This document shows positions 23,128 through 38,165 of a stretch of 64,000 nucleotides of DNA, piece after piece (positions within the stretch are counted from its first letter, which is position 1; every line of letters begins with the position of its first letter). Source of the DNA: Streptosporangiaceae bacterium. Its GTDB lineage: Bacteria > Actinomycetota > Actinomycetes > Streptosporangiales > Streptosporangiaceae. The stretch covers positions 1-64,000 of the forward strand of contig JAOPYK010000074.1 of NCBI GenBank assembly GCA_025964695.1. The letters are read 5' to 3'. The notes under the pieces were generated by a model. That model searched no databases, was not told where the DNA came from, and saw only the letters and a list, made by a program, of their open reading frames with translations. The position numbers and the translations under genes were made by a program.

Positions 23128-23157
23128 TTCTTACTAAAACAGTAGGAATAGTTGACT
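23128..23157 (+). promoter_or_regulatory. Inverted repeat and -35 box before the sulfur leader peptide
   Basis: TTCTTACT / AGTAGGAA arms (7 of 8 match) around AAAAC at 23128-23148, then TTGACT at 23152-23157 as a probable -35 box; the -10 (near TTCTCT, 23175) is weak. The AT-rich repeat stands out in 72% GC surroundings and looks like a repressor site for sulfur control. The identity of the regulator is unknown. Confidence 0.5.
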
Positions 23158-23186
23158 TGAGCCATCGGGCCTGGTTCTCTTTAACC

Positions 23187-23264
23187 ATGCGCGTTCGGCT
23201 CATCCTCACCCGCCGGCGGCACGTGGACCTGGTCCGTGTCGCCGGAGCCAACTGTCGGTTCTGA
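23187..23264 (+). CDS. Leader peptide of sulfur-type transport operon
   Basis: A 25-codon frame, too short for usual gene finding, with the motif LTRRRHVDLVRVAGANCRF. Actinobacterial sulfonate, cysteine and sulfate operons commonly carry such peptides with RRHVDL.RV...C. The cysteine codon is three from the stop. Eight bases after the stop begins a perfect 11-bp hairpin. This suggests translation-coupled attenuation of the ABC operon that starts at 23439. A second member with the same motif lies at 38006. Confidence 0.75.
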   Translation: MRVRLILTRRRHVDLVRVAGANCRF

Positions 23265-34533: not shown

Positions 34534-35289
34534 TCAGACCGCGGCGACGGTCCGGGTCTCGTGCAGGGCCTCCGCGTAGCGCTGGAGGATGATCTCGGCG
34601 AGCTCGGGAGCCGCACCGAGGACGGCGGAGACCGCGGTGGCCCCGGCGGCCAGGGACTCGGTCCGGACTTTGTCCGCGAAGTAGCCGGGGGCCAGGAAGT
34701 AGGACGCGACCACTACGCGGGGTGCGCCCGCCTCCCGCAGGGCACGGACCGCTTCCGCGGGAGCGGGGCGGGCGGCGGAGGCGTACGCGGGGCGTACGGC
34801 CCACCAGCCGCGCGCCGACCAGGCCCGGGCCATCGATTCGATGACGGCATTGGCCGAGGGATCGCTCGAGCCCGCGGAGACCAGCACCACCGCGGTGGAC
34901 GGGTCGCCGGTCTCGACACCCGTCTCGGCCAGCCGGCGCTCCAGGGCGCCCAGCAGCAGCGGGTGCGGGCCGAGGGTGCCTGCGGTGCGCATCCGGAAAC
35001 GCGGGTGCCGGGTGGCGACCGTGGACAGCACCCCAGGGATGTCGATCTTGCTGTGGTAGGCCGCGGTGAGCAGCAGCGGGAGCACCACGGCCTCGCGGGC
35101 GCCCCCGGCCGCGAGGCCGTCCAGGACCTTCACGGGCGTGGGCGGCGCGTGGTCCAGGTACGACGTGAGCACCCGCAGTCCCGGCCGGCGGAGCCCTACC
35201 GCGCCGAGCAACTGCTCCACGGTGGCGGCGGCGCGCGGGTCCGTGGACCCGTGCGCGACCGCCACCAGCGGGCGGGAGACTCCGGTCAC
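34534..35289 (-). CDS. Sirohydrochlorin chelatase (CbiX/SirB-like)
   Basis: A 251-residue two-lobed protein, LVAVAHGSTDPRAAATVEQLL at the start (the HGS histidine binds metal) and LPLLLTAAYHSKIDIPGVL with the second histidine. It inserts iron into sirohydrochlorin to give siroheme, the cofactor of the sulfite reductase encoded upstream. GTG start overlaps the cysH stop by 4 bases (GTGA). The frame is open much further but that part is shadow of cysH. Confidence 0.9.
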   Translation of the reverse strand: MTGVSRPLVAVAHGSTDPRAAATVEQLLGAVGLRRPGLRVLTSYLDHAPPTPVKVLDGLAAGGAREAVVLPLLLTAAYHSKIDIPGVLSTVATRHPRFRMRTAGTLGPHPLLLGALERRLAETGVETGDPSTAVVLVSAGSSDPSANAVIESMARAWSARGWWAVRPAYASAARPAPAEAVRALREAGAPRVVVASYFLAPGYFADKVRTESLAAGATAVSAVLGAAPELAEIILQRYAEALHETRTVAAV

Positions 35290-36008
35290 AGGTGGATGCC
35301 GCACTCTGTCTTGCCGGAGCCGGCCCAGCGGCCGCTGCGGGGGTCCTCTCCGGGGGCCACCGGGCTGGTGCAGGGCTCGCAGCCGATGGACGGGTAGTCG
35401 TCGTAGTGCAGCGGGTTCACCAGGACCCCGTTGTCGGCCATGTAGTTGTCCATGTCCGCCTCGCTCCAGTCGAGGATCGGGTTGACCTTGACCATGCCGC
35501 GCTTGCGGTCCCACTCGACCACGCGACGGTCCTTGCGACTGGCGGTCTCGTCCCGGCGGATGCCGCTGAACCAGGCCATGTAGCCCTCCAGGGCCCGGCC
35601 GAGCGGCTCGACCTTGCGCAGATGGCAGCACAGATCCGGGTTGCGGCCGTACAGCCGGGGGCCGAGGTCGCGCTCCTGCTCCTCGACGGTGCGGGTCGGC
35701 GTCACGTTGATGACGTTCACCGGGTACACGGCCTCGACCGCGTCCCTGGTGCCGATCGTCTCGGCGAAGTGGTAGCCGGTGTCGACGAACAGCACGTCGA
35801 TGCCGGGCTTGACCTTGGACACCAGGTGGATCAGCGCGGCGTCAGACATGGACGAGGTCAGGCAGATGCGGTCGCCGAAGGTCGCCGACGCCCATCGGAT
35901 GACCTCGAGGGCGGACGCACCCTCCAGGGCGTGGGCGGCGGAGTCGACGATGTCCTGGAGATCCAGGGCCGGGCGCAGGTCGGGGCGGACTGTCTCAAGA
36001 GTGGTCAC
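35286..36008 (-). CDS. cysH: Phosphoadenylyl/adenylyl-sulfate reductase (4Fe-4S type)
   Basis: Reduces activated sulfate to sulfite. Cluster cysteines DLCCHLRK (Cys127, 128) and GCEPCTSP (Cys210, 213) are all present, as in iron-sulfur enzymes that accept APS; the catalytic cysteine is in TECGIHL (Cys236). LTSSMSDAALIHLV is the substrate loop. The gene overlaps the small zinc-ribbon gene (GTGA). No cysD, cysN or cysC follows in the window. Confidence 0.95.
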   Translation of the reverse strand: MTTLETVRPDLRPALDLQDIVDSAAHALEGASALEVIRWASATFGDRICLTSSMSDAALIHLVSKVKPGIDVLFVDTGYHFAETIGTRDAVEAVYPVNVINVTPTRTVEEQERDLGPRLYGRNPDLCCHLRKVEPLGRALEGYMAWFSGIRRDETASRKDRRVVEWDRKRGMVKVNPILDWSEADMDNYMADNGVLVNPLHYDDYPSIGCEPCTSPVAPGEDPRSGRWAGSGKTECGIHL

Positions 36009-36197: not shown

Positions 36198-37856
36198 TCA
36201 CTGGAGGTCGTCGTCCGCGGCGCGGTGGACCCACTCCGTGAAGGTCTCGCCGTCGGTACGCTGCGCGTCGTACCGGCGTACGACCCGCTCCACGTAGTCG
36301 GTGAGACCCGCCGAGGTGGTCTTGAGTCCCCGGACCTTTTTGCCGAAGGAGGCGCCGACCTGGCCGCCCAGATGGATCTGGAAGCCCTCCACCTGGTCGC
36401 CGTTCTCGTCCACCACCAACTGGCCCTTGAGACCGATGTCGGCGACCTGGATGCGGGCGCAGGCGTTCGGGCAGCCGTTGACGTTGATGGTCAGTGGCTG
36501 GTCGAAGTCCGGCAGCCGCCGCTCAAGCTCCTCGATCAGGTCGATCCCGCGCTGCTTGGTCTCGACGATCGCGAGCTTGCAGTACTCGATGCCAGTGCAG
36601 GCCATGGTCTGCCGGCGGAACGTCGACGGGTGGACCTGCAGGTCGTGCTTGCCGAGCTCGGCCGCGAGCGCTTCGGTACGGTCCTCGGGGACGTCGAGGA
36701 TGACCATCTTCTGCTCGACGGTGGTGCGGACCCGGCCCGAGCCGTACTCCTCGGCGAGGTCGCCGATGACGTGCAGCAGGTCGCCGTTGAGCCGGCCGAC
36801 CTTCGGGGCGAAGCCGACGTAGAAGTCGCCGTCCTTCTGCGGGTGGATGCCGACGTGGTCACGGCGGGGGAGCGGGGCGGCCGGGGCGGGGCCGTCCGGC
36901 AGGGCGAAGCCCAGGTACTCCTTCTCCAGCACCTCACGGAACTTCTCCGCGCCCCAGTCGTTCACCAGGAACTTGATCCGGGCCCGATGCCGCAGGCGCC
37001 GGTATCCGTAGTCCCGGAAGATCGAGATGATCCCTTTCCAGACCTCGTGCACCTGCTCGGGCTTCACGAACGCGCCCAGGCGCTTGGCGAACATCGGGTT
37101 GGTGGACAGGCCGCCGCCGACGAAGACGTCGTAGCCGACCTCACCGGCGTCGTTGACCACGCCGACGAAGGCGATGTCGCTGATCTCGTGGACCGTGCAG
37201 TGCGCGGTGCAGCCGGACATGGCCGACTTGAACTTGCGCGGCAGGTTGGAGAACTCCGGCGAGCCGATGTACCGGTCATGCACGTCCTTGATCTGCGGGG
37301 TCGCGTCGATGACCTCGTCCTCGGCGACGCCGGCGAGCGGGCAGCCGAGGATCACGCGCGGGGTGTCACCGCAGGCCTCCATGGTGGAGAGCCCGACGGC
37401 CTCGAGCTCCTGCCAGATGGCCGGCACGGACTCGATCTCGATCCAGTGCAGCTGGATGTTCTGCCGGTCGGTGACGTCCGCGGTGCCGCGGCCGTACTTG
37501 TTGGAGATGTCGGCGATCGCCCGCAGCTGGGCGGGGTTCAGCTGGCCGCCGTCGATGCGGATCCGCAGCATGAAGTAGCGGTCGTCGAGCTCCTCGGGCT
37601 CCAGAACCGCGGTCTTACCGCCGTCGATCCCGGGCCTGCGCTGTGTGTACAGCCCGAACCAGCGGAATCTGCCGCGCAGGTCGGCCGGATCGATCGAGTC
37701 GAACCCCGCCTTGGAGTAGATGTCGATGATCCGGCGTTCGACGTTGAGCCCGTCGTCGTTCTTCTTGTTCTCTTCGTTCTTGTTCAGCGGTTCGCGGTAA
37801 CCGAGAGCCCACTGGCCCTCGCCACGCTTCTGCTTCACGGTTTGCTTCGGTGGCAC
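36198..37856 (-). CDS. Ferredoxin-dependent nitrite/sulfite reductase
   Basis: Reduces sulfite to sulfide with a coupled siroheme and 4Fe-4S centre, 552 residues in two ferrodoxin-like halves. Cluster ligands are ACTGIEYC (Cys420, Cys426) and GCPNAC (Cys462, Cys466); the Tyr425-Cys426 pair matches the mycobacterial enzyme, where tyrosine and cysteine are cross-linked. The siroheme-site arginines lie in TADVTDRQNIQLHWIEI. Context says sulfite rather than nitrite. ATG start; a leader peptide precedes it by 150 bases. Confidence 0.93.
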   Translation of the reverse strand: MPPKQTVKQKRGEGQWALGYREPLNKNEENKKNDDGLNVERRIIDIYSKAGFDSIDPADLRGRFRWFGLYTQRRPGIDGGKTAVLEPEELDDRYFMLRIRIDGGQLNPAQLRAIADISNKYGRGTADVTDRQNIQLHWIEIESVPAIWQELEAVGLSTMEACGDTPRVILGCPLAGVAEDEVIDATPQIKDVHDRYIGSPEFSNLPRKFKSAMSGCTAHCTVHEISDIAFVGVVNDAGEVGYDVFVGGGLSTNPMFAKRLGAFVKPEQVHEVWKGIISIFRDYGYRRLRHRARIKFLVNDWGAEKFREVLEKEYLGFALPDGPAPAAPLPRRDHVGIHPQKDGDFYVGFAPKVGRLNGDLLHVIGDLAEEYGSGRVRTTVEQKMVILDVPEDRTEALAAELGKHDLQVHPSTFRRQTMACTGIEYCKLAIVETKQRGIDLIEELERRLPDFDQPLTINVNGCPNACARIQVADIGLKGQLVVDENGDQVEGFQIHLGGQVGASFGKKVRGLKTTSAGLTDYVERVVRRYDAQRTDGETFTEWVHRAADDDLQ

Positions 37857-37951
37857 GGCGCGCGTCCTCAGGATCTTTGTTCGTGAGGGACGCGTGACGC
37901 ATCGGCAGAACGGCCGCAGGCCCAGATCGCAATGTCGCGTTGCTAGGAGAT

Positions 37952-38009
37952 GTGACGCCGCCGGCGCACCACGCGCCCACTAATCAAATGGGGCGGGGGA
38001 GGGCGTCAC
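37952..38009 (-). promoter_or_regulatory. Stem overlapping leader stop, attenuator candidate
   Basis: On the minus strand GTGACGCC (38009-38002) contains the leader stop codon, and GGCGTCAC (37959-37952) is its exact complement; a second stem GGCGC/GCGCC sits in between. A ribosome at the stop would cover the left arm, which is the arrangement expected for attenuation of the sulfite reductase gene. Confidence 0.6.
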
Positions 38010-38083
38010 AGACAGATTGCGGTGCTTACGCGGAGAAAATCGACATGGCGGCGCATCACCAGCAGGGGATCCGCAGCACTCAT
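38006..38083 (-). CDS. Leader peptide of the sulfite reductase operon
   Basis: A 25-codon frame with the motif MRRHVDFLRVSTAICL, matching the peptide at 23187 (RRHVDLVRVAGANC). Cysteine is the penultimate residue. ATG 38083 has GAGG almost on top of it; the internal ATG at 38056 is the other possible start. It ends 150 bases before the sulfite reductase gene, with a stem that begins on the stop codon. Known as a family of putative leader peptides near sulfur genes in actinobacteria. Confidence 0.75.
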   Translation of the reverse strand: MSAADPLLVMRRHVDFLRVSTAICL

Positions 38084-38165
38084 GCCTCGACTGTGCCACG
38101 CGGCCTGCAAGATTGTCCAGCCGCGTCCGGCATATGGACAGGCACGTGAGAAGGCGTTCATGACA

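Follow-up and report, generated by a model that had tools for sequence, protein, structure and literature searches.

A leader frame ahead of the sir operon

The window, by which we mean the whole 64,000-nucleotide stretch of Streptosporangiaceae DNA that was analysed, carries on its minus strand the sulfate-assimilation operon sir-cysH-sirB, which lies downstream of a short leader frame:

38114-38119, minus: -35 element TGGACA
38090-38095, minus: -10 element CACAGT (xAnnnT), 6 nt 5' of the ATG; leaderless mRNA predicted
38083-38006, minus: leader peptide frame MSAADPLLVMRRHVDFLRVSTAICL*, 25 codons, stop codon TGA at 38008-38006
38012-38014, minus: UGU at motif position +13, the putative regulatory codon for Cys
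36198-37856, minus: sir, sulfite/nitrite reductase, GTG start (PF01077, 5.6e-60; PF03460, 7.5e-45; NIR_SIR domains)
35286-36008, minus: cysH, (P)APS reductase (PF01507, 3.5e-46)
34534-35631, minus: CbiX/sirohydrochlorin ferrochelatase-like frame (sirB), start provisional (PF01903, 8.6e-35)

The first-pass annotation had reported a 25-codon minus-strand frame upstream of sulfite reductase; its coordinates were right, and the sir product carries NIR_SIR domains. Of the named relatives, those nearest to Sir come from Actinomadura species. The MSAADPLLVMRRHVDFLRVSTAICL frame matched the NCBIfam model NF042934, "putative leader peptide", with 29.4 bits against a cut-off of 27 (27.5 bits in the scan of the genome). 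With NF042936, the Ms4527A Cys-rich leader, the sir leader scored only 27.4 bits, below the cut-off of 45. A Pfam search of the leader peptides gave no matches, and an Rfam search of the window at gathering score gave none either. The window's sir leader has a single Cys codon and no contiguous Cys codons.

Orthologues of the leader ahead of sir were analysed in 109 relatives of the same family. An xAnnnT sequence was present at -12 or -13 in 109/109, ending 6-7 nt ahead of the start codon, and 108/109 matched TGGACA in at least five of six positions; the combination of the two elements was met at 0.5% of shifted positions. A sequence resembling a Shine-Dalgarno (SD) was found upstream of the leader in 19/109, as against 104/109 upstream of sir. 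Sequence and comparison show the leader and its promoter, and leaderless transcription of the leader is likely.

Alternative helices between the leader and sir

The RNA between the leader and sir can be divided into the following segments, two of which are predicted to have a choice of partners:

38002-38010, minus: P1 5' arm TGTGACGCC, which includes the stop codon; complementary to 37959-37951
37989-37999, minus: segment 1 (P2 5' arm) CCCCCGCCCCA, paired with segment 2 in the minimum free energy (MFE) fold; P2 is kept in relatives
37960-37978, minus: segment 2 GGGCGCGTGGTGCGCCGGC, partner of segment 1, or of segment 3 at 18/19 positions
37951-37959, minus: P1 3' arm GGCGTCACA, partner of TGTGACGCC
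37888-37906, minus: segment 3 GCCGATGCGTCACGCGTCC, which includes the anti-Shine-Dalgarno CGCGTCC
37857-37869, minus: segment 4, sir Shine-Dalgarno GAGGACGCGCGCC, partner of segment 3 (93.5% of cells paired, three pairs with double changes)

That the stop codon is embedded in a stem arm, as first described, holds: TGTGACGCC (38010-38002) and GGCGTCACA (37959-37951) are complementary throughout. The arms had been given as 8 bp, 42 nt apart, with another stem in between, which is also correct; the full complementarity is 9 bp. When the stop was held fixed and the remaining downstream part was dinucleotide-shuffled, 0.44% of 5000 trials placed the stop in a stem of at least eight perfect pairs formed within 80 nt. 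The MFE fold of the region holds the P1 stem, and a further hairpin in it occludes the ribosome-binding site of sir. Because the total folding energy of the region is ordinary (z -1.1), the case rests on conservation and comparison and not on stability.

Conservation was assessed in an alignment of 41 Actinomadura-type sir leaders, with 40 distinct relatives in the helix scoring. In helix 3:4, CGCGTCC pairs with GGACGCG of the sir SD, hiding it. A 19-bp helix between segments 2 and 3 is mutually exclusive both with P1/P2 (1:2) and with 3:4. We refer to 2:3 as the ON helix and to the others as the OFF helices. The 8-bp P1 helix was paired in 94.7% of cells among the 40 distinct relatives. The OFF helices were paired in 93.5% of cells, with five pairs changed on both sides (10 double-change cells), and the ON helix in 95.5%, with five such pairs (14 double-change cells); these cells are counts of related sequences, not independent events. 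In slid registers pairing dropped to 23-59%, and none of 500 shuffles reached the covariation score, for the OFF set and for the ON helix alike. RNAalifold, unprompted, picked helix 2:3. The covariation comes largely from Actinoallomurus and a few basal sequences. Compensatory pairing among relatives, the check that the first-pass annotation had proposed, was thus found for both the OFF and the ON helices, and is clearest in Actinomadura. The first-pass annotation had overlooked the 19-bp alternative helix and the hiding of the sir SD.

In a swap test, in which segments were exchanged between clades without overlap, 2:3 was weakened by 8.3 kcal/mol and 3:4 by 5.1 in Actinomadura. No such effect was seen for 3:4 in the Streptosporangium-type and Nonomuraea clades, and outside Actinomadura the covariation of 3:4 in this test was little or none. 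Relative to shuffled segment 3, z was -3.55 for Actinomadura; for the window it was -2.1. Both arms differ between clades (GACGCC/GGCGTC, TGCGACGC/GCGTCGCA, AACGTCGG/CCGACGTT and CACGACGCC/GGCGTCGTG); since the arms were found by maximising pairing, this list illustrates the point and does not test it. Sequence and comparison show that the helices are conserved and mutually exclusive, and the arrangement is that of a candidate four-segment RNA in which 1:2 and 3:4 exclude 2:3, the formation of which would free the sir SD.

The CGCGTCC of the leader codons RV had also been considered as an anti-SD; this candidate was dropped, as Actinoallomurus loses the complementarity and keeps the peptide. 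In two divergent relatives (L126 and L130), the Cys codon tract CTGCTGC(T) pairs with (A)GCAGCAG beside the sir SD AAGGA, which may represent a minimal form of direct sequestration.

P1/P2 could instead be a terminator, intrinsic or Rho-assisted, the formation of which is prevented by stalling. We consider such transcription attenuation unlikely for the window, which has TCTCCTAG and no U-run after P1, and no terminator call there; a U-run is likewise absent in 35/40 scored sequences of the window's group, in which the SD hairpin is conserved. In the sister clade, the 8 nt that follow the P1 3' arm contain five or more U in 26/66 scored sequences (for example GGCGTC-TTTTTCATG), and in these the P1 hairpin looks like an intrinsic terminator, as judged from sequence. 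With about 26/66 carrying such a U-run behind P1, termination may replace sequestration in the sister clade or add to it. Sequences with the U-run directly behind the arm include L012, L018, L069, L072, L080, L090, L091 and L112, among others. Within one family, the sir leader has apparently shifted between sequestering the SD and resembling a terminator, and the series offers natural material for the study of riboregulator evolution.

Ribosome position, the UGU codon and the leader peptide

The effect of a ribosome on the leader was modelled by folding the window RNA with the ribosome-covered part removed; these runs give equilibrium energies and ignore kinetics. With no ribosome, P1 stood at 0.95-0.99, the ON helix at 0.00-0.01 and the unpaired SD at 0.01-0.02. 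With the 3' edge at Cys+12 to +15, at which the A or P site holds the Cys codon, the ON helix rose to 0.42-0.68 and 3:4 was at 0.06-0.18, with the SD unpaired at 0.09-0.15. The ON helix was at 0.17-0.18 with the edge at +18/+19 (stop in the A site) and at 0.13 with the edge at +45. The clade mean for the ON helix was 0.15 in the free RNA, 0.65-0.71 at edges +21 to +30 and 0.24 at +45, so that the best stall edge lies at Cys+12 to +15 for the window but at +21 to +30 for the clade mean. By these equilibrium energies the SD opens modestly, from 0.02 to 0.15, and when the accessibility of the SD and start codon was profiled in general over 121 leaders, only weak trends were seen. The direction is consistent in the folding model: covering segment 1 turns the RNA ON, and covering segment 2 turns it OFF.

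It had been proposed that a terminating ribosome on the arm-embedded stop unmasks the stem, with the position of the stop as the sensor. A ribosome sitting on the stop would shield a portion of the arm, and TGA or TAA lies inside the arm in 41/41 Actinomadura-type sequences. However, the placement of the stop did not hold up as a working part. In Streptosporangium, Microbispora, Nonomuraea and their allies, the leader ends in ...ICxDAR*, the arm GACGCC codes for Asp-Ala and the stop is displaced 9 nt downstream, from Cys+6 to Cys+15, with the arm core fixed at Cys+6/+7. The 5' arm spans Cys+7 to +11 in 37/40 Actinomadura-type and 60/66 sister-group scored sequences. Thus, the arm keeps its distance to the Cys codon while the stop shifts, and the stop codon is not the key element. 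As the stop-positioned edge also gave little ON structure in the window, sensing through the stop is very unlikely.

We consider it probable that the leader attenuates sir-cysH-sirB in response to cysteine by way of the ribosome, for the most part at the level of translation; that cysteine is what is sensed, where the ribosome stalls and in which direction control runs are what we infer. The leaderless mRNA would begin at or beside the leader AUG. With plentiful Cys-tRNA, the ribosome would pass the UGU codon, terminate and depart, whereupon the P1/P2 hairpin (1:2) would form, segment 3 would pair with the sir SD (3:4) and sir would be OFF. When Cys-tRNA is scarce, the ribosome would wait with UGU in its A site and cover the P1 arm; segment 2 would then pair with segment 3, forming the 19-bp antisequestor, and sir would be ON.

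The Cys codon at motif position +13 (C13) is invariant. It was TGT in 121/121 sir leaders, as against 853 TGC versus 39 TGT in the sir genes downstream. In a class-wide sample, with leaders in 45/60 genomes from about 25 families and ahead of many different operons, C13 was TGT in 86/87 distinct leaders; other Cys codons were 19 TGT and 76 TGC in the same leaders, and 37 TGT and 234 TGC in the longest downstream frames (Fisher p 1e-31, the leaders being related to one another). No search made use of which codon stands at C13, and none of the other two-fold codons in the leaders behaves like it. A nucleotide motif around UGU was considered as the cause and rejected, since the flanking positions are much less conserved, save for a pyrimidine preference after UGU. 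In the class-wide leaders (L141-L148, L163-L251), UGU is followed by a pyrimidine in 83/87 and by G in just one. The sole Cys anticodon among the tRNA genes found in the genome is GCA, so that UGU has to be read by G:U wobble.

The peptide is also constrained. R0, D4, R7 and C13 occur with fixed spacing in 87/87 class-wide leaders, ahead of unrelated sulfur operons, and L-3 in 97%; the 87/87 is somewhat circular, because the regular expression that located the frames partly required these four residues (7/97 loci did not fit it), while the NCBIfam profile matches behind the class-wide set did not require them. In the sir set the four residues are invariant apart from one residue position, and R7, V8 and A11 are invariant though not all were demanded by the search. 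Since synonymous sites in its codons vary, the peptide is conserved as a peptide. Among the papers listed in a literature search for the RRHVD motif, none naming it was found, which is not proof of absence.

This conservation could reflect a functional small protein, with the RNA pairing incidental. We regard this as highly improbable: most copies examined sit directly before sulfur-type operons, the RNA helices are conserved with compensations, and one Cys is constrained at the level of the codon. Alternatively, R-R-H-V-D-x-x-R-V in the exit tunnel might hold the ribosome near UGU or the stop in a TnaC-like manner, sensing cysteine or another sulfur metabolite and not tRNA charging alone. The fixed R0, D4, R7 and C13 across unrelated sulfur operons, with varying synonymous sites, speak for such arrest, as a pure hungry-codon device would need no such peptide. 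However, the conservation count is partly circular, and peptide arrest leaves the UGU-only rule unexplained, since UGC encodes the same peptide. We hold it to be possible but on the unlikely side; it can be combined with cysteine-responsive attenuation.

Together, the UGU rule and the fixed spacing of R, D, R and C suggest a peptide-assisted, codon-specific sensor. Tentatively, and with appreciable doubt, we propose that the R-x-x-x-D-x-x-R chain sensitises the ribosome, and that the response is set by the one UGU, which tRNA-Cys(GCA) can read only by G34:U wobble; the codon might in addition register the thiolation of the tRNA (ms2i6A37) and, through it, sulfur status directly. UGC would then fail despite encoding the same peptide. 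Both the UGU rule and the conservation of the peptide would follow if the nascent chain sharpened a slow sensor codon.

Other family members and known attenuators

A second leader lies in the window:

23187-23264, plus: leader peptide MRVRLILTRRRHVDLVRVAGANCRF, NF042934 38.0 bits, preceding a sulfonate/taurine-type binding protein

The copy at 23187 had been said to have the same motif as the sir leader, and MRVRLILTRRRHVDLVRVAGANCRF indeed matches the same NCBIfam model. The two had further been taken for a shared sulfur device. They have the peptide and UGU in common, but the RNA at 23187 is built differently, and in a simple folding test it did not behave as a similar switch. That leader peptides of this kind serve a sulfur-gene device at several places in the genome is supported: a scan found six sites above the family cut-off and two weaker but convincing ones, and all eight have TGT at +13. 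Downstream of the copies lie sulfonate-type ABC transporters, a luciferase-like monooxygenase, rhodanese, cysteine dioxygenase and a HEAT-repeat protein. Two DNA-pattern sites (C174 and C246), considered as third and fourth copies, were rejected as chance, being without a leader frame.

One family leader (L159:380-973; C202:45379) lies ahead of cysteine dioxygenase (PF05995) and rhodanese; a device turned ON by Cys starvation would be odd ahead of a Cys-degrading enzyme. Another (L160:336-1316; C118:3235) precedes the HEAT-repeat protein, which has no obvious sulfur role. Two sulfonate-transporter leaders (C202:46403 and C310:146552) have a common upstream sequence, TTGAYTTAGTAGGNAA, resembling a promoter plus operator. 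It has two exact copies genome-wide, both ahead of sulfonate-transporter leaders, and the control was not empty; in the window (23130-23160) the copy at 23130 is merely similar.

A family known to NCBI merely as a "putative leader peptide" would hereby gain a candidate RNA mechanism with testable helices. Moreover, about 25 families retain the same synonymous codon, UGU, at one position in the face of a strong GC bias. This rule makes an old question testable, namely whether slow codons are chosen as attenuator sensors and whether the nascent peptide tunes them.

In ermC-type translational attenuators, a stalled ribosome frees a sequestered SD via alternative pairing. The same SD-freeing logic is proposed here; the signal is presumably Cys-tRNA, whereas that of ermC is a drug. 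An RNA structure sequestering the ribosome-binding site was found in silico, with 3:4 conserved and the SD unpaired at 0.02 in the free RNA. The uORFC-8-2 motif before cysS in Rhodobacterales (Alphaproteobacteria; PMC8632094) is alike in being a Cys-codon leader with RNA stems, but it has tandem Cys codons, with UGC dominant, and an intrinsic terminator. Candidate cys leader peptides were predicted in 2005 in Mycobacterium, Propionibacterium and Bifidobacterium, with Rho proposed (PMC1262725). These too are ORFs of actinobacteria that lie ahead of cys genes and have Cys codons close to the stop; conserved hairpins were not found in that study, in contrast to the conserved alternative helices found here. 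The NF042934 entry (cis_reg_atten) is a peptide profile only, and the RNA switch and the UGU rule lie outside the model.

Cysteine-responsive attenuation by leaderless short ORFs is already established in mycobacteria, for polycysteine ORFs (Canestrari et al., 2020, doi 10.1111/mmi.14498, as cited in PMC9031893 and PMC13236596). In the passages that concern them, PMC9031893 has this attenuation depend on cysteine availability, and PMC13236596 terms the device translation attenuation. As far as these passages describe the mycobacterial ORFs, the present leader is alike in being a short ORF, here predicted to be leaderless, before a cysteine/sulfur operon, with Cys codons near the stop. It differs from them, as so described, in having one Cys codon, always UGU, and no polycysteine tract, and in its putative four-segment RNA, with a long antisequestor helix and a P1 arm that overlaps the stop.
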